64,000 nucleotides of DNA. It comes from Fredinandcohnia onubensis. GTDB lineage: Bacteria; Bacillota; Bacilli; Bacillales; Bacillaceae_L. The stretch is from contig NZ_JAPSKV010000002.1 of assembly GCF_031181385.1 (NCBI RefSeq), positions 372,001-436,000 of the forward strand, read 5' to 3'. Each line of letters starts with the position of its first letter. Within the stretch, counting starts at the first letter, position 1. Below the pieces are notes generated by a model. It saw nothing but the letters and a program-made list of their open reading frames with translations, was not told the origin of the DNA and made no database searches. Shown here piece after piece: positions 37,687-50,278 of the stretch. The position numbers were made by a program, and so were the translations under genes.

Positions 37687-37722
37687 GGGACACAGGGACA
37701 GGTCCAATGTCCCAGGAAAAAT
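37686..37722. repeat. GGGACA/TGTCCC repeat, copy 9
   Basis: GGGACACAGGGACAGGTCC...ATGTCCC, then the tail AGGAAAAATATAGT, which is shared with copies 10 and 11. Confidence 0.7.
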
Positions 37723-37747
37723 ATAGTAGAAAATAAATTACTGTTCC

Positions 37748-39063: not shown

Positions 39064-39149
39064 CGGGACTAATGGCGTGGGTCGCAGGGACCGGCCCCTT
39101 GTCCCAGGAAAAATATGGTGGGCGAGGGACCTGTCCCTCTGACCCTATT
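39064..39149. repeat. GGGACA/TGTCCC palindromic repeat, copy 10
   Basis: Three blocks: CGGGACTAATGG, GCAGGGACCGGCCCC...TTGTCCC and GCGAGGGACCTGTCCC, linked by AGGAAAAATATGGTGGG. It overlaps the stop of the UroD-like gene at 39145. Confidence 0.75.
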
Positions 39150-40086
39150 GCCAGGATTCTTCGTTGCAGATGATTGAGGTTTTTTCTTGTAGTTCACTTA
39201 GGTTTATTTCTATATCAAGTGGTTGGCTAGATGATAGGAACATTCTTCTTTTTTTGTTTTCTTTCCATAGTGAGGTTAACTGAGATAGATCCAATGTGTT
39301 TTCCCATATGGATGGCGCAAATGCAATGCCTTTGATTTTAATAGAAGTTGAATTAGTAATGAATTCCTGCGACCCCACAATAACATCTGGCAAATGGTTT
39401 GTTGATTCAATTGAATTGATATCAGATGATAACCGCAAAATGCCAAAGATGTTGTAAAATTTAATGACGTTAAAGAGAGGTTTATATACATCCTTACATT
39501 CCTCCCATAAAGCAGAATCCAATAGGTCTTCATTAATAAGGATTCCGTCAACCTTTGCGTCGCCAAAAGCTTTACATAGCCCAATCATAGCTTGTGTTAT
39601 TTCTGAAGCTCGTTTTTTCATTAATCCTATATCTTGATTGATATTTTCTCCATATAGGGTTTTAAGAATAGTGACTGGACCAGTTATCGTTGCAATTATA
39701 GGTAATTCTTTCCCTTGAACTTTAACCAATCGTTCCACCACTTCTTTTACAACTGGTATTCTTCCGCTTTCCAAAAAGTCGGATGATAATATTTCCTGCG
39801 AGATAGGTACTTCTATTACACTTGGCATTTCTTGTTCTTTCCATTCGAGCACTCCACCAAGCGCCTCTACCTCTAAAGAAGGGTCTAACGGTAAAATAAT
39901 TGCATCATAGCTTAGAAGTTTTTGAGTATTTACTAATGCCGAATAAAAAGTATTCGCATCTTGTAAGATTGAAGGAATTGAAACTTGATCCACTTTTGTG
40001 ATATACGTACCTACCAATGGGAGAAAAGGAGGTCGAGGGACAGCCCGACCTTTAAAAAATTTTTGAACTAATTCTTTTTTATCCAT
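39145..40086 (-). CDS. uroporphyrinogen decarboxylase-like (MtaA/CmuA) protein, last gene of the apc-like operon
   Basis: 313 residues (about 35 kDa). The fold looks like the UroD/cobalamin methyltransferase barrel (YDAIILPLDPSLEVEALGGVLEW, then a GPVTILKTLYG turn and DGILINEDLL), but key heme-pathway residues are not evident, so heme synthesis is not implied. It follows the HyuB-like gene by 24 bases. In the acetophenone carboxylase operon as I remember it, the fifth subunit is about 34 kDa and sits in this position. A homologous role is inferred from order and size only. Confidence 0.6.
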   Translation of the reverse strand: MDKKELVQKFFKGRAVPRPPFLPLVGTYITKVDQVSIPSILQDANTFYSALVNTQKLLSYDAIILPLDPSLEVEALGGVLEWKEQEMPSVIEVPISQEILSSDFLESGRIPVVKEVVERLVKVQGKELPIIATITGPVTILKTLYGENINQDIGLMKKRASEITQAMIGLCKAFGDAKVDGILINEDLLDSALWEECKDVYKPLFNVIKFYNIFGILRLSSDINSIESTNHLPDVIVGSQEFITNSTSIKIKGIAFAPSIWENTLDLSQLTSLWKENKKRRMFLSSSQPLDIEINLSELQEKTSIICNEESWQ

Positions 40087-40110
40087 GGAACAACTCCTTA
40101 ATATGAAAAG

Positions 40111-42162
40111 TTACATACGGACAATTTGTCGTAAAGGCTCTGCATTCGGCCAGCTACCATAGTAAATAAGTGCTTCTTCAGGTGGTTGCTTTGTGGACCA
40201 CTCAACCATAAATTCATCGTATCTTTTTCCTCTACCTAAACGATCCTTCCTTTCCGCTTCTCTTAGCTTTTCAGTCTTCTCCTTATCTAAAGTTAGCGTT
40301 TCGGGATCATAGGAAACTTTGTAGATATTTTGGGCTACCCAATCTGAAATGAGTTCATCCTTTAAGTCCTTGATAACATTTTCCGGATCACGATCAAGTA
40401 CATCACCATAGCCACCACCACCAGTTGAATTAGCTACATAAATATCACCATCCATGACAGGTGCGGCGGGACGTGGTGCACGCTCAACCACATAATCCCC
40501 ATCAATAGAGCGATTTTTCACAAGGTCTGTCGTGTTAACAGGAATATCTGCATCCCCATTTTTCATCTTCTCAAAATAGTTTGCATTTACAATCTTAATA
40601 CCTGGATGTGACGGAGGAGGATATCCACCAAATAACCCTTGTGTGATTGGAACTTTGTGATGCTTAATAATCGATTGGTACACTAAGAATGGAACGCCTT
40701 TTACAGCCCATGCTACGTTAGTTCCTGCCCCACCTCGATACTTTCCAAATCCTCCAGAATCCTTCCAATGCTTAAAATATAAATGGACATGTGGTTGCTC
40801 ATTTTCCATATCTTCTACATCTGGAGCTTTCCCCCACCAGCCCCAAGGGAATCCAAAGGAGTTATCTCCATCACGATGAGTTCTGGCTCCACTACCCTCA
40901 CTGTTCAATACGTTCGCAAGCATATCCGCAAATGGGACACCCCATTGGTTTTGGCCAGCGATAACGACAGCACAACCACCGGCCCCGTAACCACTTGTTG
41001 AAAGTTCTTTTACACCACTAGCGTATAGCATTTTCGCAAATGCATTAGACACTGTTGATAACACACAGCTATTTGTAATCGGTGAATTGGCTACCGATGC
41101 ATCGACATTTGCGTTTAAAAACGTACCTTGTGGAACAATTACCTTAATTGATGAGAAGATACCTGATGATGTTGGTAAGTCTGCAAAAGGTACTCCAAAT
41201 AGATAGATTGCGATATGGGCACGTACGATGTGCATAAAACTATTAAATGAACCATCATTCTCAGGTGAAGAACCTGTAAAGTCAAATGTAAGTGAGTCGC
41301 CCTCTTTTGTTAGTGTTAGTTGACAACGCATCAATGAATCGGCTGTTCCCATTGTATCCATGAAAGAAACTGAACGATATACACCATCTTGCCAACTTGA
41401 AATACGTTTACGGGCTCCTTCCTCGGCTACAATTAACATTTTTCTCATTACACCAACAACCAGATTTACTCCTTTTTTCTCTATGAGTTGTTGGACACGA
41501 ATACGCAAACGGTCACATGCAGCAACACGTGCTTTGGTATCAATGATCTGCATTCGTGGCGCTCTTGAAACCATGTTTGCCATCATATTTAACATGTCAT
41601 TTCGAATTTGATAGTTTTCACCAATTTTGATTGGTGGCAATTTCATCCCTTCGTCTGCACGAGACTTCGCTGTTAGTGGCATACCACCTGGTTCAATCGC
41701 ACCTGTTTCAGGCTGATGTACCGCTGCTGCAGCCCATGCAATAAGCTCACCTTCATGGAAAATTGGCATGACCGCCACTTGGTCTGGATTATGAACCCCT
41801 CCATAAAGGGCCTCATTCGCATAGAATATATCCCCTTCATTTATACCAATTGTAGGATCGTCCTTATAATACTTAAGAATATATTTAATTCCAATTTGAG
41901 TAGTAACAGCGTGCAGATAAACGCCGCAGTAGGCCGCTACCAGGTCACCTTTTGCCGTATATAAACCTACGACGATATCGCCTGAGTGAAGCATCGAGGA
42001 AACTCCGATTTTCGTTAAGACCTCTTTTGCTTCTAGCACCAATTGGTTTAACTTTTCACTATAAATCTCATATTCACCAGACATTAAACTCTCAAGGGCA
42101 GTTTGTTCAAATTCATCTATTGGTTCTGGATGGATTCGTTCATTAATTCCGAAATCAATCAT
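40111..42162 (-). CDS. HyuB-family carboxylase subunit (Apc4/AcxB-like)
   Basis: 683 residues (about 75 kDa), hydantoinase B family. Recognisable segments are the N-terminal SMLHSGDIVVGLYTAKGDLV, the SPENDGSFNS turn in FDFTGSSP, and the C-terminal GGGGYGDVLDRDPE end shared by HyuB-type proteins. In ketone carboxylases this subunit binds the metal and carries the carboxylation site. It overlaps the HyuA-like gene upstream by four bases (ATGA), so translation is coupled. It is part of the five-gene run 39145-46737. Confidence 0.88.
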   Translation of the reverse strand: MIDFGINERIHPEPIDEFEQTALESLMSGEYEIYSEKLNQLVLEAKEVLTKIGVSSMLHSGDIVVGLYTAKGDLVAAYCGVYLHAVTTQIGIKYILKYYKDDPTIGINEGDIFYANEALYGGVHNPDQVAVMPIFHEGELIAWAAAAVHQPETGAIEPGGMPLTAKSRADEGMKLPPIKIGENYQIRNDMLNMMANMVSRAPRMQIIDTKARVAACDRLRIRVQQLIEKKGVNLVVGVMRKMLIVAEEGARKRISSWQDGVYRSVSFMDTMGTADSLMRCQLTLTKEGDSLTFDFTGSSPENDGSFNSFMHIVRAHIAIYLFGVPFADLPTSSGIFSSIKVIVPQGTFLNANVDASVANSPITNSCVLSTVSNAFAKMLYASGVKELSTSGYGAGGCAVVIAGQNQWGVPFADMLANVLNSEGSGARTHRDGDNSFGFPWGWWGKAPDVEDMENEQPHVHLYFKHWKDSGGFGKYRGGAGTNVAWAVKGVPFLVYQSIIKHHKVPITQGLFGGYPPPSHPGIKIVNANYFEKMKNGDADIPVNTTDLVKNRSIDGDYVVERAPRPAAPVMDGDIYVANSTGGGGYGDVLDRDPENVIKDLKDELISDWVAQNIYKVSYDPETLTLDKEKTEKLREAERKDRLGRGKRYDEFMVEWSTKQPPEEALIYYGSWPNAEPLRQIVRM

Positions 42163-44324
42163 GCCGTTACCCCCTCAACCGTTTTCTTTTCGATTAATCC
42201 ATTTAAATATTGGTCAACTGTATAAACAACATTAGGTGGTAAAACAACAGTTGTATGTGGTGATTCGATTAACGCTGGACCCTCAATTTTATTACCACTT
42301 CTTAATTCCTCTAGTTGATATATGTTTGTATCTACAAACCCACCAAGTTCCGGCCAGTATGCTTTTCGAGTTCCTTTAACAGCATGGCTAGCATCTTCAC
42401 CTGAAACTTCATTTTGAATAAAATTAAATTTCTCTTGTGGAACAATTGCTTTTAGAACAACATTCTCAATTTCGACTCCGCCCTCAGGATAAACAGCAAT
42501 AGAGCTGTACGCATTAGAGTATTCTTCAGTAAAACTATCCCATAGATTTTGAATATCATGAGGACTATTTAAGAATAGGCTAGGTGATACGGCCCTCTTA
42601 ATATTAAGCTGACCACCATATTTCATATCTAATTCTAATTGATATTGAATATCCTCAGGATCGAATCCTTCACCCGTTATATCTCGGATGGCTTTTTCCT
42701 GTAGATTACGGACGACTGAATTAAGAGATTCATAGTCTGTTAAAAATTTCTTTGTGCCAGGCTCAAGAAGAATGATGTGTTGGGATTGTTCATAAATGTG
42801 CATGATGTCCATCATAGATGATGAAAAGGCACAGAATACAGGTGATTGCTGTAAAACAACCGTTTTTGGAATATCTGCCTCAAATCCAAAACCTGCACCA
42901 TGTACAGGCCCGCCACCTCCTAAAGCAAACAGCACGAAATCTTTAGGGTCATTTCCTTGAAGAGATGTTTCTTTTTGGATAATATTTGCCATGTTCCCGT
43001 CACAAACTTTTTTAATGAGATAAGCTGCTTCATAAACATCTACACCTAATGGCTTTGCAATTTTTTCTTCAATCACGTGTTTTGCTTTTTCAATATTTAG
43101 CGTTAAGTTTCCACCATGAAAATAATCTGGATTTAGATAACCTAATACAAGGTCTGCATCTGTCACCGTTGGCTCCGTTCCACCTTGATCGTAGGCTACA
43201 GGCCCAGGAAAACTACCTGCACTACGAGGACCAACCTCTAGTCGACCTCCGAGTACATCATTAATCCATGCAATTGAGCCTCCACCTGTTCCAATCGATT
43301 TACTTTCTAACATGGTCATATCAACTAGCCAACGATCAATAACTGGTTTAAATTGATAATTGTTTGTTTCTCCGTCTACAACTAGCCCAATATCAAAACT
43401 CGTGCCGCCCATATCCGTAACAACTATATTAGGATAGTCATATAACTTACCTATTTGATTACTACCAATGATCCCAGCAACTGGCCCTCCATTATACGTA
43501 TTAACTGCAGATGTACGGAAAACCTCTGCCATTCCTCCAGTATTATGAACCATTAGAAGTGGATTCTTGTACCCTAAATCGCGTAGTTCATCTCCAATAT
43601 TCGATAATTCTTCAGCCATCGCCTGGTGAAGATAGGCGTTTAAGATGGCCATATTGGAACGAGTATACTCATATCTCTTAGGCATAACCTCACTTGAAAG
43701 AACAACTGGCATATTCCCGAGGTAATACTCTGGATATTCTTCTTCAATGAGCTCCTTAATTCTTTTTTCATGAACAGAATTTTTAAACGACCATAAAGTA
43801 GATACAACAAACCCCATTACTCCCTGATCAACTAAATATTGCAGTTTATCTTTAAAATCTTCTTCATCAAGTGGACGAATTACTTCCCCCGTATAATCAA
43901 TTCGCTCTTTTACTCCTACAACATTTTCTCTCGGAATTAACGGAATCGGCTTGCTAACTTCGGCAATTTTCCTACTTTCTAATGAACTAATTCCATCTTG
44001 CCATTGGCTTCCCTTTCCGATATAAAGCATATCTTCATATCCCTCAGTTGTAATAAATCCAAGCTTTGGCCCTTTTCGTTCGATTAGCTTATTCATCGCA
44101 ACTGTAGTAGAATAACGAATCATGTCCGTTTCTTCCAATAATTCGTCAAGATCTAAGTCAAGGAGATCAGCTCCATTTTCAATCGCTTTAATAAAACCGA
44201 CTGATAAATCATATCCAGTCGTTGGACTCTTAGAAATAACGGATTGGTCTCCGTATCGAATAAAGCAATCTGTGAATGTACCACCGATATCAATATCGAT
44301 TGTCGCCCTAATTTTTGTTGTCAT
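42159..44324 (-). CDS. HyuA-family ATP-dependent carboxylase subunit (Apc3-like)
   Basis: 721 residues (about 79 kDa), hydantoinase A / N-methylhydantoinase family. The N-terminal phosphate loop is IDIDIGGTFTD; the actin-like ATPase signature VVTDMGGTSFDIGL and the FALGGGGPVHG region follow. In ketone carboxylases the HyuA-type subunits phosphorylate bicarbonate and/or the enolised ketone. It has good AAAGGAGG spacing and is coupled to the small subunit gene upstream (14 bases). A second HyuA-like gene lies two genes upstream. Confidence 0.88.
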   Translation of the reverse strand: MTTKIRATIDIDIGGTFTDCFIRYGDQSVISKSPTTGYDLSVGFIKAIENGADLLDLDLDELLEETDMIRYSTTVAMNKLIERKGPKLGFITTEGYEDMLYIGKGSQWQDGISSLESRKIAEVSKPIPLIPRENVVGVKERIDYTGEVIRPLDEEDFKDKLQYLVDQGVMGFVVSTLWSFKNSVHEKRIKELIEEEYPEYYLGNMPVVLSSEVMPKRYEYTRSNMAILNAYLHQAMAEELSNIGDELRDLGYKNPLLMVHNTGGMAEVFRTSAVNTYNGGPVAGIIGSNQIGKLYDYPNIVVTDMGGTSFDIGLVVDGETNNYQFKPVIDRWLVDMTMLESKSIGTGGGSIAWINDVLGGRLEVGPRSAGSFPGPVAYDQGGTEPTVTDADLVLGYLNPDYFHGGNLTLNIEKAKHVIEEKIAKPLGVDVYEAAYLIKKVCDGNMANIIQKETSLQGNDPKDFVLFALGGGGPVHGAGFGFEADIPKTVVLQQSPVFCAFSSSMMDIMHIYEQSQHIILLEPGTKKFLTDYESLNSVVRNLQEKAIRDITGEGFDPEDIQYQLELDMKYGGQLNIKRAVSPSLFLNSPHDIQNLWDSFTEEYSNAYSSIAVYPEGGVEIENVVLKAIVPQEKFNFIQNEVSGEDASHAVKGTRKAYWPELGGFVDTNIYQLEELRSGNKIEGPALIESPHTTVVLPPNVVYTVDQYLNGLIEKKTVEGVTA

Positions 44325-44338
44325 TTGTATTTCCTCCT

Positions 44339-44701
44339 TTACACATTCTTAAATACTTTCTTCTGTTGTCTTTCCTCTTCAATAGCTTTTTGTTTTAATG
44401 ATTCTAGGTCTATTTGAATGTCATGTGTAATCGGATGTCCATATGCTAAGACTTCTGTTTCTACCAACGTACCGCAGCCAGGACAATAAAATTCAACTAA
44501 ACGAACCCAATTCGCATCAGGAGAAAATGTGTAATCACCTTCTACATGTGGTTGATGAATTTCACTTGGGTCACGATCATAAATGAGGCAACCTTTCTTA
44601 TAATTCTCATGTGCTGAATTCAATTCATGATCACATTTATCACATACCCAAACTTCCTCCTGTAAATCCACGGCAATATACTCAGTTATTTTTCTTCTCA
44701 T
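44339..44701 (-). CDS. acetone/acetophenone carboxylase small subunit-like zinc-ribbon protein
   Basis: 120 residues (about 14 kDa). Two CxxC knuckles (VCDKCDHELN and YCPGCGTLVE) form a zinc ribbon; IYDRDPSEIHQPHVEG lies between. It resembles the gamma subunit of acetone carboxylase and the 15-kDa subunit of acetophenone carboxylase. Its start lies two bases after the upstream HyuA-like stop, with the ribosome site inside that gene, indicating a translationally coupled operon. Probably it bridges or stabilises the large subunits. Confidence 0.75.
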   Translation of the reverse strand: MRRKITEYIAVDLQEEVWVCDKCDHELNSAHENYKKGCLIYDRDPSEIHQPHVEGDYTFSPDANWVRLVEFYCPGCGTLVETEVLAYGHPITHDIQIDLESLKQKAIEEERQQKKVFKNV

Positions 44702-44703
44702 CC

Positions 44704-46737
44704 TTACACCTCCATAATTCCGTTTAAATGTTGGTCCATACTAAACATTGCACCAAGCGGAACAACGATCGTTGTATTTGAGCTCTCTAGAACCGCAGGT
44801 CCTTCAATTTTATGACCAGGCATTAACCCCTCAATGTCATAAATATTTGTATTGATGACATTCCCTTTCCAGTAAATAGGTCTTGTTGATTTCGGTTTTG
44901 GAATGGAATCAACCAGCTCTAAGGATGGTAATGCAAAATGAGAAACGCTTACAAAACTATTTAATCGAATAAATTCAATTGCGATTTTGTCTGAACCTAA
45001 TTGCTTAGCGATTGATTGTAATTCCTCTTTCAGATACTGTTCATTTGTTCTATGAAAAACATCACTAGGTAAATAGAAAATATCTCTAACCTTTCCATTG
45101 TCTGAAGCAACCTCTAAGGAAACTTCATATCGTATCGATTCAGGAGTAAATCCTTCTCCACGCATATCACGATGAGAGTGTTTTTTCATTTTTTCGAGAC
45201 TAGCATTAGCATTAATAAGGAATTCTCCAATCTCTTGATTAGGACCAAATTGGAAATCGACACGTTCCTGATACGTATGAGCAACATCAGCTGTAGATAA
45301 ACCGAATGCGCTAAAAACAGAACTGAAGGGGAATGTAAATATCTTTTTAATCCCGCTCTTTTTAGCCATTCCAGCGGAAAATAAACCTCCGCCGCCCCCG
45401 AATGAAAAGAGTTGAAAATCCGTTATATTTTTTCCTCTTTCATTAGAAAGCTGTTTTAGTGTGTCAGCACCAATTTGTTCGATTTTATCAACAATAAGTG
45501 TTGCCGCCTCTTCATTTGATATATTTAACGGTGTAGCAATCCATTTTTTTATAGCATCGATTGCTTTTTCCTTTGATATTTTTTTTGTTCCACCTAAGAA
45601 ATAATCAGGGTCAACGATACCAAGAACGACACATGCATCCGTTACGGTTGGTTTTGTTCCACCTAGCCCAAAACAGGCTGGTCCAGGTACTGCCCCTGCA
45701 CTTTCCGGTCCTAATTGAAGTTCTCCATTTGGAGTAACCTTGGCAATGGTTCCACCTCCACCGCCAACCGATAAAACATGGATTAGAGGGGCGTGGACTG
45801 GAATTTCCGCAATGCTTGATTCTGTATCAAATGTAAGCTCTCCATTTGAGATTAATCCTACATCTGTACTAGTCCCTCCCACATCCACAGACATGATATT
45901 ATCCAGACCATACATTTCACCGATGTATCTTGTTCCCATTAATCCTGCAGCAGGACCCGAGTTGTACGTATCCAATGCCTTTGTTTTTGCGACACGCGCA
46001 ACACCACCGTTGGCGTGAGCAATTAATAATGGTTTTGTATAACCCTTTTGTCTTAACCCCTCATCCGCTTTATATAAATACTTCACCATATCACGATGAA
46101 GATAAGCATTAACTACAGCCGCATTTGTTCGAACCCCATTATCTGATCGTGAACTAATATCACTACCAAGTTGAATTGGTTTTGTTCCAAGATAATGCTT
46201 TGGAAAATCATCTTGGATAATCCTTCGAACGAGTTTCTCATTTTGATTGTTTGTATGAGCATTTTTTAAGCTGACAACAATCACTCTTGTTCCTAGTTCT
46301 AATAGCTTCTTTGTTACTCGTCGTACTTCAGCTTCATCAACCGATTTAACTACTTCTCCACTTTCAGATACTTCTTCATCAATGGAAACAATCATATCTT
46401 CTTGTACTAAAAAATTTAAAATTGGGTTTTTATCATCTTGATAAAGCGAATCTGCATATCCTTTTGTGACAATTAAACCTAGCTTTGGTCCGGTTCTTTG
46501 AATAATCGAGTTTGTTCCAACCGTTGTTGAAAGTCTTATCGTTTTCGTATCTTTTAGGAAATCGCTTACATTTTCATGACCAAATCTTTTAGCACCTTCC
46601 GTTATGCAATTATTAAAACAAACCGTTAAATCATGTGGCGTCGTTTCCACTTTCACTACTTCAAATCGATCTCCATAGGAAAAGAAGCCATCCGTAAAAG
46701 TTCCACCTGTATCAATATCTACAGTGTATTGTGCCAT
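44704..46737 (-). CDS. HyuA-family ATP-dependent carboxylase subunit (Apc1-like)
   Basis: 677 residues (about 73 kDa). The phosphate loop VDIDTGGTFTD and VDVGGTSTDVGL identify the HyuA family; SVGGGGGTIAKV and FSFGGGGGLFSAG mark the later nucleotide site. It is clearly a paralogue of, not identical to, the 721-residue subunit, as expected for a complex with two different HyuA-type subunits. It is the first carboxylase gene and follows the CoA ligase by 23 bases with an AGGGAGG site. Probably hydrolyses ATP during ketone or bicarbonate activation. Confidence 0.86.
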   Translation of the reverse strand: MAQYTVDIDTGGTFTDGFFSYGDRFEVVKVETTPHDLTVCFNNCITEGAKRFGHENVSDFLKDTKTIRLSTTVGTNSIIQRTGPKLGLIVTKGYADSLYQDDKNPILNFLVQEDMIVSIDEEVSESGEVVKSVDEAEVRRVTKKLLELGTRVIVVSLKNAHTNNQNEKLVRRIIQDDFPKHYLGTKPIQLGSDISSRSDNGVRTNAAVVNAYLHRDMVKYLYKADEGLRQKGYTKPLLIAHANGGVARVAKTKALDTYNSGPAAGLMGTRYIGEMYGLDNIMSVDVGGTSTDVGLISNGELTFDTESSIAEIPVHAPLIHVLSVGGGGGTIAKVTPNGELQLGPESAGAVPGPACFGLGGTKPTVTDACVVLGIVDPDYFLGGTKKISKEKAIDAIKKWIATPLNISNEEAATLIVDKIEQIGADTLKQLSNERGKNITDFQLFSFGGGGGLFSAGMAKKSGIKKIFTFPFSSVFSAFGLSTADVAHTYQERVDFQFGPNQEIGEFLINANASLEKMKKHSHRDMRGEGFTPESIRYEVSLEVASDNGKVRDIFYLPSDVFHRTNEQYLKEELQSIAKQLGSDKIAIEFIRLNSFVSVSHFALPSLELVDSIPKPKSTRPIYWKGNVINTNIYDIEGLMPGHKIEGPAVLESSNTTIVVPLGAMFSMDQHLNGIMEV

Positions 46738-46760
46738 GTAAAACCCTCCCTATATATAGA

Positions 46761-48080
46761 TTAATAGATTTCTTTTACATACTTTGTTTTCATTTCAAAA
46801 CGAGGTAAAGTACCCTCAGGAACTAATTGAATGTCGGCACGAAACATGAGTTTGCCTCTTAATGTTTCTTCTAATTCCTTTTTTAAATTTGGTAAATCCT
46901 CTTCAGTGTTCATTCCATGTTCCACTTTAATTTGTAATGGTGGTTCCACTGCAGGTCCCGGTTTTTCTAATAGGATTTGAATATCGCCAGTTGTTCTAGG
47001 ATAAAAACTACTCACAACATCTTTTATTGCTGTTGGAAAGACGTTCACGCCACGAATAATTAACATATCATCGGTTCGACCAATGCATCGAATTCGAAAA
47101 CTAGTACTGCCACATGAACATTTTCCGGTTTTTACTGATATTAAATCTCTTGTACGGAATCTAAGTAGCGGAACACATTCTCTATCAATTGCAGAATAGA
47201 CTAATTCTCCTTCACTTCCATTCTCAAACGGTTTGACCTTACCAGTTTCTGGATCAATCAGTTCACAGATTACGTAGTCTGGAGCAACAAAATGCATTCC
47301 GTCCCCTGCTGGACATTCTGAAAAAAGAACAGGGGCCATATCCGCATTTCCCATAGCTTCAAAAACCCGAGCACCCCAATCTTGCTCAATTCTTTGTTTC
47401 ACTTCTGGTAAACCACCGCCAGGTTCACCACCGGTGCCAATTAGCTTAAATCCTAAATCACGGGGATTCATACCAATTGAACGTATATAATCTGCAAGAT
47501 AATTTGCATAGGATGGCGTACATAAAAGTACATCTGGTTTTAAGTGCAAGGATGTGGTTACTAGTCGTTCGGATGCCCCTGTTCCAATTGGAATAAAAGT
47601 AGCTCCTAATCTTTCAATTCCATCTTTTAAGGGAAGTCCACCAACGAAAAATGATAATCCCATAGCAAAGATAACTTTATGATGTGGTCTTACACCCGCT
47701 GTATAATATACTCTAGATACAATATCTGTCCATATATCACTATCCTTTTTGGTGATCCCAACATATGTTGGCCTCCCAGTTGTACCAGATGAGGAGTGAA
47801 TTCTTATAATTTTGTCAAAATCAATACATTGGTGTGTACCTAAATCAGTGGCGTTTTCTTGGCTTTTACGAATTTCGAGTTTCTCCGTAAAAGGTAGCTT
47901 TTGTAAATCTTCAATTGTCTCAATTTCCATAGGGTGGATTCCTGCTTCATCTAATTTAGAAGCATACATTGGGGAATTTTGATACATATACTGAACTTGC
48001 TTACGTAATTTTTCTTCCTGTAATAGCTTAAGTTTCTCAGGCGATATTTGTTCTTCAACTGATTTTTGATATGAGAACAA
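46761..48080 (-). CDS. phenylacetate-CoA ligase family AMP-forming ligase (PaaK-like)
   Basis: 439 residues, the PaaK length. The P-loop-like motif SSSGTTGRPTYVG near residue 92 and the FRTRDL and RTDDMLIIRGVNVFP segments are typical of this family, which activates aryl acids with ATP and CoA. A TTG start follows AAAGGAGG. Being first in the apc-like operon, it is best explained as the ligase for the carboxylated ketone product (for acetophenone, benzoylacetate to benzoylacetyl-CoA), a role known in the denitrifier pathway. A housekeeping phenylacetate ligase is an alternative but no paa genes adjoin it. Confidence 0.88.
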   Translation of the reverse strand: MFSYQKSVEEQISPEKLKLLQEEKLRKQVQYMYQNSPMYASKLDEAGIHPMEIETIEDLQKLPFTEKLEIRKSQENATDLGTHQCIDFDKIIRIHSSSGTTGRPTYVGITKKDSDIWTDIVSRVYYTAGVRPHHKVIFAMGLSFFVGGLPLKDGIERLGATFIPIGTGASERLVTTSLHLKPDVLLCTPSYANYLADYIRSIGMNPRDLGFKLIGTGGEPGGGLPEVKQRIEQDWGARVFEAMGNADMAPVLFSECPAGDGMHFVAPDYVICELIDPETGKVKPFENGSEGELVYSAIDRECVPLLRFRTRDLISVKTGKCSCGSTSFRIRCIGRTDDMLIIRGVNVFPTAIKDVVSSFYPRTTGDIQILLEKPGPAVEPPLQIKVEHGMNTEEDLPNLKKELEETLRGKLMFRADIQLVPEGTLPRFEMKTKYVKEIY

Positions 48081-48098
48081 GATATTCCTCCTTTCTCA

Positions 48099-48126
48099 TT
48101 CGAATATTTAATAAATTTCGAATATT
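48099..48126. promoter_or_regulatory. direct repeats upstream of the ligase/carboxylase operon
   Basis: TTCGAATATT occurs twice, the copies starting 18 bases apart and about 20 bases ahead of the PaaK ribosome site. It is self-complementary in its TTCGAA core. A candidate activator site or part of the promoter of the operon. Confidence 0.4.
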
Positions 48127-48250
48127 ATGTGTTCATTTTACAGGATAGAAAAGACTATAACCACGTTGTTTACCCACAAAAATAACCGGAATTTTTTACA
48201 CATCTTTGTCTTCTAGAAACAAAAGATAGATGATATGTAAGAAAAAGAAA

Positions 48251-48279
48251 AAAATGACCATTATGTAAATAGTCATTTT
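48251..48279 (-). terminator. terminator of the PucR-type regulator gene
   Basis: AAAATGAC / GTCATTTT, an 8-bp stem with a 13-base loop and a following T tract on the minus strand, placed directly after the stop at 48281. Confidence 0.72.
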
Positions 48280-48280
48280 C

Positions 48281-50077
48281 CTATACTTTGCTATACATCA
48301 AATGCTCTAGCCTTAATGCAAGTGATAGACTAAGTCTTACTTCAGAATCTGCTAGATCAAACCCGGTCATATCTGTTATTTTTTCAATTCGGTACTTAAG
48401 TGTGTTTTGATGAACAAATAATTCTTCAGCGGCTCTCTTGATTTGACCATTATGCTTTAAATAGACCTCTAATGTTTCTTTTATTTCTTTTGAATTTTTC
48501 AATTCATTTAGCTTCTTTAGGTACAGATTTGTATATGCGCTTACGTTTCTTTCGTCAAACATAACCATACTCGAAAGCAATGTCCAACTCCCACACGCTG
48601 GAAAATATCCGACATTCCCGAGATGCCTAATTCTAGGAAGAGCACTTAAGATTTGACTTGCCTGTTGATAGGAATGTTCGGTCAACTCAATTGAATCTAC
48701 AGATTCACCTACCCCTATGAAAACCTCTAATTTTCTAGTCTTCGCATGTAAATCGAGATTCTTTTGTAGAACGTCTTGTAACTTGTAGCTTACATCTAGT
48801 ATTTCATGTTCTGAATCATGTGAAACTAGAGCAACGATAGCCCCATCTTTGTAGATCTTACACGGATTCCCTACCAACTGTTCTATTTTTAATTCGATTC
48901 TTTCTGATATTATTTTAGAGCTTAAGTTAAACCATTCGCCATTCTTATAGGCACCAATACGTAAAATCGAAATCTTTGGTTTTAAGTTAATTTCCAATGT
49001 CTTCAATATGCTATAAGCTTCCTCTACTTTTTCCTTATTACTAAATAGTAAACAATCAAAAAGCTGATGTATAAGGTACCTTTCAATTTCAATACGTTTA
49101 TTTTTTGGTGTTCTTATATGAGACATCTCAAGAGCCGCATTTATCGTTAATCCTAATTGTTCTGACAAATCCATAAGCAAATGTAAATCATCTTGGGTAA
49201 AGTATCCATCATTTTTGTTGATAGCGTGAAGAATACCAATTCTTTTATTATCGACCACTAAGGGAACAGTAATGATTGATGTCGCTTTAAATAGTTTTAC
49301 ATAATTTTGGTTAAAACGCTTGTCTGATAGTGCATCGGATGTGATAGCTGGAACCCCAGTTAAAAATACATCTCGTGCATTGCTTTTTTCTGTTAGTGAT
49401 ACACGATACTGTTCAATTATCGAATCTTGCCATGATCCAAATGCTGGTTTTTGCAATCTCAGTTCCTTATGTTCAGGATCAAATAACATGATTCCTGCCA
49501 TTTCCGAATTTAACAATTCTCCAACCTTTTGAACAATTTCGGCCAAAATTTCTTGAAATGAATATTGGTTAACAAGTTTTTGTAATTGAGTCATGAAGTT
49601 AAGACTTTTTGATTTTCTTTGCATAATCAAAAATAAGCGAGAGTTTTCAAGAATAATGGGAACTGATTGCATAAAGAAATTGACCATATTAATCTGTTTC
49701 TCTGAAAGTTCCTCTTCTTGGTGCGGAATAACGACTAAGACTCCTGAAAAAGTCTTTTGTCTTGTAATGGGGAAAAAGTAGGTAGATTGATCTTTTATAT
49801 TTCTTAGAGTTTGAAGCTCAATTTGCTGAAATTTTTGTTGTGTCCGATCGGTTAATTCTTTTTTCTCCAATTTATCCAGATTCTGACTTGATTGAGGGAT
49901 TAATTGTTTTAGACTTTGGTCAAAAACAAAAAAGATCCCCTTTCCACCACCGACTAGTTTAATACTTTCTAATACAATGGCTTCAGTTAATAAATTCCAT
50001 TCTTGTATACTGTGAAGATTTTCAATTCCCTTTTGAAGTAATTCAATCTGGTTTTCATTTAAGGTACTATTTTTCAT
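48281..50077 (-). CDS. PucR/CdaR-type transcriptional activator with GAF domain(s)
   Basis: 598 residues. An N-terminal helical part is followed by a GAF-like region (about 170-330; NVFLTGVPAITSDALS, IITVPLVVDNKRIGILHAINK), a central GGDEF-like/CdaR domain and a C-terminal PucR HTH (about 540-590) with KRAAEELFVHQNTLKYRIEKI. It is located directly upstream of the PaaK-apc operon on the same strand and separated by a terminator. Such regulators sense aromatic or purine-related metabolites. It is the natural candidate to activate the downstream operon. Confidence 0.85.
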   Translation of the reverse strand: MKNSTLNENQIELLQKGIENLHSIQEWNLLTEAIVLESIKLVGGGKGIFFVFDQSLKQLIPQSSQNLDKLEKKELTDRTQQKFQQIELQTLRNIKDQSTYFFPITRQKTFSGVLVVIPHQEEELSEKQINMVNFFMQSVPIILENSRLFLIMQRKSKSLNFMTQLQKLVNQYSFQEILAEIVQKVGELLNSEMAGIMLFDPEHKELRLQKPAFGSWQDSIIEQYRVSLTEKSNARDVFLTGVPAITSDALSDKRFNQNYVKLFKATSIITVPLVVDNKRIGILHAINKNDGYFTQDDLHLLMDLSEQLGLTINAALEMSHIRTPKNKRIEIERYLIHQLFDCLLFSNKEKVEEAYSILKTLEINLKPKISILRIGAYKNGEWFNLSSKIISERIELKIEQLVGNPCKIYKDGAIVALVSHDSEHEILDVSYKLQDVLQKNLDLHAKTRKLEVFIGVGESVDSIELTEHSYQQASQILSALPRIRHLGNVGYFPACGSWTLLSSMVMFDERNVSAYTNLYLKKLNELKNSKEIKETLEVYLKHNGQIKRAAEELFVHQNTLKYRIEKITDMTGFDLADSEVRLSLSLALRLEHLMYSKV

Positions 50078-50200: not shown

Positions 50201-50278
50201 GACAGGTCCCTTCCAGAATGGGACACAGGTCCCGTGTCCCAGGAAAAATATGGTGGGACGAGGACCCTCTGTCCCTCA
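50201..50278. repeat. GGGACA/TGTCCC palindromic repeat, copy 11
   Basis: GACAGGTCCC, GGGACACAGGTCCCGTGTCCC, AGGAAAAATATGGTGGG and GGGACGAGGACCCTCTGTCCC in order. It overlaps the stop codon of the C45-type gene. The AGGAAAAATATGGTGGG linker is identical to that of copy 10. Confidence 0.75.

Follow-up and report, generated by a model that had tools for sequence, protein, structure and literature searches.

In the genome of Fredinandcohnia onubensis, a stretch of 64,000 nucleotides (the window; positions 372,001 to 436,000 of contig NZ_JAPSKV010000002.1, assembly GCF_031181385.1) harbors seven minus-strand genes at 39145-50077, whose products resemble the five subunits of acetophenone carboxylase (Apc), a coenzyme A (CoA) ligase and a regulator. 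In the order of transcription, from 48080 to 39145, six intact open reading frames (ORFs) encode a PaaK-type acyl-CoA ligase (439 amino acids, 46761-48080; PF14535 and PF00501), with a TTG start after an AAGGAGG ribosome site; ApcA, the alpha' subunit and putative second kinase (677 amino acids, 44704-46737); ApcB, the gamma zinc-ribbon subunit (120 amino acids, 44339-44701); ApcC, the alpha subunit and putative ketone kinase (721 amino acids, 42159-44324); ApcD, the beta subunit (683 amino acids, 40111-42162); and an ApcE-like epsilon subunit that resembles UroD and MtaA (313 amino acids, 39145-40086). The genes are tightly spaced, with 23 nt between the ligase gene and apcA, 2 nt between apcA and apcB, 14 nt between apcB and apcC, and 24 nt between apcD and apcE, the 4-nt overlap of apcC and apcD being the only one among the six. 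The first-pass annotation had placed these six ORFs at the same coordinates and with the same lengths, as tightly spaced or overlapping genes, and had ended the operon there; in this it fell one gene short, since a 598-residue regulator with GAF and PucR-type helix-turn-helix (HTH) domains (48281-50077; PF13185, PF13556), 200 nt upstream of the ligase gene, travels with the set. A scan for promoters and terminators yielded sites that did not exceed those in shuffled sequence (25 vs 36.6 and 6 vs 7.3).

At the level of protein families, Pfam matches comprise URO-D, Hydantoinase_B, Hydantoinase_A (in two proteins), Acetone_carb_G, and AMP-binding together with AMP-binding_C_2. Among NCBIfam models, those for Apc are the top match for ApcA through ApcD, and the ApcE model ranks fourth of five for the epsilon subunit, with scores, in bits over the curated cut-off, of 502/1250 (A), 160/250 (B), 882/1500 (C), 645/1500 (D) and 39/450 (E). 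Searches of the PDB returned four chains of 5L9W as top matches for ApcA (5l9w_b, E 5e-120), ApcB (5l9w_C, E 1e-39), ApcC (5l9w_B, E 1e-240) and ApcD (5l9w_A, E 5e-176), and since the best of these E-values is 1e-240, the match is not one of chance. Identity to the Aromatoleum subunits is 35% for ApcA, 51% for ApcC and 43% for ApcD, the beta pairwise identities quoted here being derived from an earlier beta alignment in which five hydantoinase rows were read on the wrong strand. The operon shares with the ApcABCDE system of Aromatoleum aromaticum EbN1 (PDB 5L9W, 9FOU) the order A-B-C-D-E, the subunit sizes and the linked CoA ligase. As of 2017, Apc had been characterized from Aromatoleum only (PMC5214803), and the Apc name has been applied to a Listeria gene (PMC13082608); titles and abstract openings of the literature searched, outside of which subscription journals mostly lay, mention no Apc operon in a Bacillus relative.

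The Hydantoinase_A and Hydantoinase_B families are shared by several enzyme classes, and two trees were employed to separate them. The alpha-type tree holds 39 rows, including six of acetone carboxylases and one of a hydantoinase (L022), and the beta tree holds 35 rows picked by BLAST score, with the fused hydantoinase loci L081 and L082 left out; the labeling of rows as hydantoinase or acetone carboxylase (Acx) relies on which genes a locus contains and on BLAST or family hits rather than on named annotation. In the alpha tree, ApcC of the window forms one clade (support 100/100) with those of two congeners, locus L074, a Clostridia metagenome-assembled genome (MAG), an acidobacterium and Aromatoleum, and the six acetone-carboxylase rows and the hydantoinase row fall outside of it. 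In the beta tree, the 16 Apc-type rows all fall into a single clade (100/99) that adjoins the acetone-carboxylase clade (100/100), and ApcD of the window groups with its Aromatoleum counterpart (100/100). Within the Apc type, seven clusters constitute a distinct clade II (beta 100/100), four of them (L075-L078) belonging to the window's order and three (L046-L048) to the phylum of a Sphingomonadales MAG; in the alpha tree, the clade II rows are weakly joined (80/56) to those of acetone carboxylases and the hydantoinase. Resolution is also poor for the alpha' rows (85/55), which are not united in one clade, L027 and L045 standing apart from the rest.

Tree position, the order apcABCD(E), the two HyuA-like subunits and the conserved motifs described below support the placement of the operon in the Apc branch, as the first-pass annotation had proposed; clustering with oxoprolinases or hydantoinases, the outcome that it had named as contrary to its proposal, is not the case. 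Acetone carboxylase AcxABC (PDB 5SVB, 5M45) has homologs of the alpha, beta and gamma subunits and performs the same ATP-dependent ketone carboxylation that is predicted for the window, and the shared gamma family could suggest that the operon encodes a carboxylase of an aliphatic ketone, such as acetone or butanone. This reading is nevertheless unlikely, in that the alpha and beta subunits lie outside the Acx clades, alpha' and epsilon are additional to the three subunits of AcxABC, gamma has 120 residues vs 163-170 in all six three-subunit loci, and the first metal residue of beta is Asp, vs Glu in 6/6 acetone-carboxylase rows. Identity as an acetone carboxylase was thus rejected on trees and motifs, as was identity as a hydantoinase or oxoprolinase. 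HyuAB and CapAB, the hydantoinase, 5-oxoprolinase and caprolactamase systems, share the alpha and beta families and the ATP motifs with the window but have no gamma, alpha' or epsilon subunit, and the host's own hydantoinase pair (L022) is only 33% (alpha) and 23% (beta) identical to the window subunits.

The phosphate-1, phosphate-2 and adenosine motifs of the ASKHA ATP site are present in both alpha and alpha', and the KERID motif (R/KERiDsxG) occurs in alpha only, a distinction between the two subunits that has also been described for Apc (PMC5214803). Cys20, Cys23, Cys73 and Cys76 of gamma align with the zinc cysteines Cys22, Cys25, Cys75 and Cys78, all four being kept, and Asp65, His123, Asp126 and His148 of beta are kept in the window as well as in 13 hydantoinase rows; at the second beta metal place, 2/6 acetone-carboxylase rows have Gln, which may be a misalignment. 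The ATP motifs, gamma cysteines, beta Asp/His/Asp/His set and tree clade are all shared with the Aromatoleum system, from which the window departs in the pockets of its two kinases. In PMC5214803, the pocket of alpha is described as lined by seven residues and alpha' as having three polar ones, and from these residues and the pocket shapes ketone has been tentatively assigned to alpha and bicarbonate to alpha'. Four of the seven alpha residues are changed in the window, which reads Met-Tyr-Asn-Pro-Ile-Glu-Ser (MYNPIES) vs Leu-Phe-Asn-Pro-Ile-Gln-Thr (LFNPIQT) in Aromatoleum, and so are two of the three in alpha', which reads Asn-Asp-Asp vs Glu-Asp-Lys, Glu248 being replaced by Asn and Lys281 by Asp. 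Of the 16 alpha' rows, 2 (those of Aromatoleum and L028) have the Glu-Asp-Lys set; in the remaining 14, Lys281 is always replaced by Asp and Glu248 is never present.

The Asp at the Lys281 position evokes a second alternative, namely that the operon encodes a hydrolase of lactams or hydantoins, ATP-dependent and composed of several subunits, that has been misread as a carboxylase, since acetone-carboxylase and hydantoinase rows also have Asp at this position, as does caprolactamase CapA (PMC8453981). Both trees speak against such a hydrolase, as does the zinc-ribbon gamma subunit, which hydrolases lack according to PMC5214803, and the proposal is considered very improbable. Taken by its sequence, the operon can be described as a real and complete member of the Apc type, variant in its ligase, its regulator and both kinase pockets.

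The epsilon subunit is the component whose family membership is least straightforward. Its NCBIfam ApcE score of 39 bits lies below both the cut-off and three methyltransferase models, and in a PDB sequence search MtaA (4ay7, E 4.6e-7) precedes ApcE (9fou, E 2.7e-5). An AlphaFold model computed with five sequences is of low confidence (mean pLDDT 56.7, pTM 0.61); with it, Foldseek places 9fou first (E 1e-9, 286 columns) and MtaA next (3.9e-9), the TM-score of MtaA being similar to or higher than that of 9fou. Sequence and fold thus match MtaA and UroD about as well as ApcE, and these scores alone are indecisive. In MtaA, zinc is bound by an HxC..C motif; no HxC was found in the window protein, which has a single histidine, and a UroD or methylcobalamin methyltransferase function was set aside on this ground and on that of its ApcE position.

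An ApcE-like gene is present in 15/15 Apc-type clusters (the window, L018, L019, L020, L027, L028, L045-L048 and L074-L078), that of L028 being partial as the cluster ends at the contig end. A profile search of 19 loci gave no match at E 1 in the six acetone-carboxylase loci and the hydantoinase locus. The gene lies between apcB and apcC in L027 and L045 and behind the ligase gene in L020; in clade II it stands behind apcD and is very diverged, at L075:14760-15659, L076:4531-5382, L077:14779-15639, L078:14642-15529, L046:14585-15553, L048:14863-15693 and L047:14708-15367. The gene behind apcD has no Pfam match in L075 and L076 and no NCBIfam match in L075. Comparison of the L075-L078 profile with that of the window's ApcE group gave a probability of 93.9% (E 1.6e-7, 273 columns), and a profile built from eight rows of that group matches all four L075-L078 genes (E 1e-10 to 3e-5). 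In the profile search as a whole, most matches to window-type and L075-L078 genes arise by construction, those rows having built the profiles. Profiles of the window's group give no match in L046, L047 or L048, where the L075-L078 profile matches the ORFs behind apcD (E 1e-34 in L046 and L048; 7e-13 in L047, 219 residues). The epsilon subunit has been described as not being part of every Apc cluster (PMC5214803); its occurrence in all 15 suggests that it is a fixed part of the Apc machine.

The CoA ligase linked to the window's operon is of PaaK type, as the first-pass annotation had it. In five other clusters, L027 and L045 (Pseudomonadota) and L074, L075 and L076 (the window's order), the linked AMP-binding ligase has a C-terminal domain of another family. 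The window ligase was not accepted as PaaK itself, its scores of 312/700 and 285/646 bits being below the NCBIfam PaaK cut-offs. Because the window ligase is 49-50% identical to the Apc-cluster ligases of the Clostridia MAG and the acidobacterium, and 33-34% identical to the nearest other match in nine genomes of its genus, it appears to travel with the carboxylase. A thiolase and a CoA ligase lie beside the Apc-type clusters L027, L045 and L076. In the acidobacterial cluster, an isochorismatase-family gene (L028:1643-2365) is located between the PaaK-type ligase gene and apcA. The regulator is kept beside the operon in both congeners, and the L020 cluster, too, is followed by a protein of the GAF-PucR kind; Aromatoleum differs in having two-component systems near its operon (PMC4729919).

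From the gene set, homology, tree position, ATP and metal motifs and the co-travel of ligase and regulator, a scheme can be proposed for activity, substrate, the division of labor between alpha and alpha', and the pathway that follows the ligase. The operon probably encodes an Apc-type ketone carboxylase that depends on ATP but not on biotin, together with a CoA ligase for its product. In this scheme, alpha (ApcC) would phosphorylate a methyl ketone, most likely aromatic, in its enol form, and alpha' (ApcA) would make activated bicarbonate; the two activated species would react within a complex that beta (ApcD) and gamma (ApcB) hold together, and epsilon (ApcE) would presumably be needed for turnover, as in Aromatoleum. 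The PaaK-type ligase would load the resulting beta-keto acid onto CoA, a thiolase encoded elsewhere could cleave the CoA ester into an acyl-CoA and acetyl-CoA, and the GAF-PucR regulator may sense the inducer.

Several observations weigh against this scheme. None of the five subunits attains the NCBIfam equivalog cut-off that defines acetophenone carboxylase in the strict sense (NF042960, NF042974-NF042977), the second-best NCBIfam model for ApcC is that of caprolactamase (466 bits vs 882), Leu81, Phe281, Gln344 and Thr345 of the alpha pocket are replaced by Met, Tyr, Glu and Ser, and no thiolase lies within the operon. Regarding the fate of benzoyl-CoA, no match was found in any of the nine genomes of the genus for BoxB, which was sought as the next step. 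In favor of the scheme, a cluster on contig 8 of the host's own genome (L079, 4032-18605) encodes a BenE transporter, PaaX, PaaA/PaaC-like oxygenase subunits and a member of the benzoate-CoA ligase family (613 bits, cut-off 375); it possibly specifies a benzoyl-CoA oxygenase of the PaaA type and could take up benzoyl-CoA. Against this, its oxygenase subunits are far below the PaaA and PaaC cut-offs. The PaaA/PaaC family constitutes weak evidence on the substrate, because 8/9 genomes of the genus have it, with or without the operon.

As the substrate, an aryl ketone is favored over an aliphatic one, and none is named here; acetophenone itself is no more than a candidate, the first-pass annotation too having left the substrate tentative, and four of seven alpha-pocket residues differ from Aromatoleum. 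Within the Apc-type reading, an aryl ketone more polar than acetophenone, through ring hydroxylation or otherwise, or a ketone similar to phenylacetone that would lead to phenylacetyl-CoA, is a plausible candidate with somewhat less than an even chance of being correct: the altered alpha pocket, the PaaK-type ligase and the PaaA/PaaC-family subunits of the genome point toward it, the pocket assignment of PMC5214803 is itself tentative, and no neighboring gene indicates a specific ketone. The regulator of L074, which has XylR_N ('activator of aromatic catabolism'), V4R and PucR-HTH domains, gives a hint of an aromatic inducer. A further proposal, which is held as doubtful, is that most Apc-type alpha' subunits, including that of the window, would not activate bicarbonate via the Glu/Lys pocket of Aromatoleum, employing instead another mode of activation or phosphorylating another substrate, that this branch might carboxylate a distinct aryl ketone, and that ApcE, whose divergence in part of the family exceeds the reach of BLAST, might be an obligate mark of the two-kinase mechanism. 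PMC5214803 leaves open the role of ApcE and the cooperation of the two kinase sites, which are about 50 A apart; the operon would offer a second Apc system, whose natural substitutions (Glu248Asn and Lys281Asp in alpha', Phe281Tyr and Gln344Glu in alpha) could serve as a test of the published proposals.

The gene set recurs sporadically. A scan with two short peptide patterns found five loci in all, in Bacillus timonensis MM10403188, Fredinandcohnia onubensis 0911MAR22V3, the Clostridia MAG, the Sphingomonadales MAG and the Acidobacteria MAG, the patterns being too short and missing carriers. Counting ApcB-family matches with an E-value of 4e-38 or lower as being of Apc strength, carriers amount to 3/9 genomes of the genus, 8/396 of the order (including those three), 2/398 of the phylum (including the window's own genome), 5/398 of the phylum of the Sphingomonadales MAG and 1/149 of that of the Acidobacteria MAG. 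In two congeners, the four core subunits and the ligase are 91-99% identical to those of the window and ApcE is 80 and 95% identical; among the clusters examined, the closest relative outside the genus is L074 (58-71% for ApcA-D, 34% for ApcE), and the four core subunits of the Clostridia MAG are 47-56% identical.

The unit common to the window, F. onubensis 0911MAR22V3 and B. timonensis is regulator-ligase-apcABCDE. In the window and F. onubensis it lies between a C45 acyltransferase gene and a SEC-C gene, neither of which was found within the 20 kb surrounding the operon of B. timonensis (L019), and the flanking genes (alcohol dehydrogenase, luciferase-like, FMN-reductase, C45 acyltransferase, SEC-C and others) were excluded from the unit for want of a match there. 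At the same site, the flank genes of genome G007 are about 160 bp apart and enclose no operon; in G004 the interval is 4.6 kb long and its ORFs, named by eye, resemble SDR proteins, a transporter and a MarR-type regulator. A 21-nt repeat marks both edges on the minus strand, its downstream copy (39100-39120) matching the upstream copy (50235-50255) exactly, which occurred in 0 of 100 shuffles. Because the flanks vary, the site is empty in G007 and holds other genes in G004, and repeats stand at the edges, the operon resembles a cassette that occupies a variable site. A third copy of the repeat, with 2 mismatches, lies at 37708-37728, and the G+C content of the operon is 37.4% vs 37.7% for the window. 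The sporadic distribution and the empty site in one congener might also be taken as signs of a decaying or silent acquired cassette devoid of function; against this, three genomes of the genus have matches to the seven genes over almost their entire length, with 91-99% identity for core and ligase, and this explanation is the least probable of those considered here. If the predicted Apc-type carboxylase is active, aryl-ketone carboxylation would reach spore formers as an exchangeable cassette.

The first-pass annotation regarded an ATP-dependent ketone carboxylation route as unexpected in an aerobic spore former. Weaker gamma matches, at the level of acetone carboxylase, occur in 14/396 genomes of the order, in two of which (L021, L053) the three-gene acetone-carboxylase set was checked, and ketone carboxylases of another type hence seem not to be foreign to the order. 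F. onubensis 0911MAR22V3 also has a separate three-subunit locus of the acetone-carboxylase type (L021).

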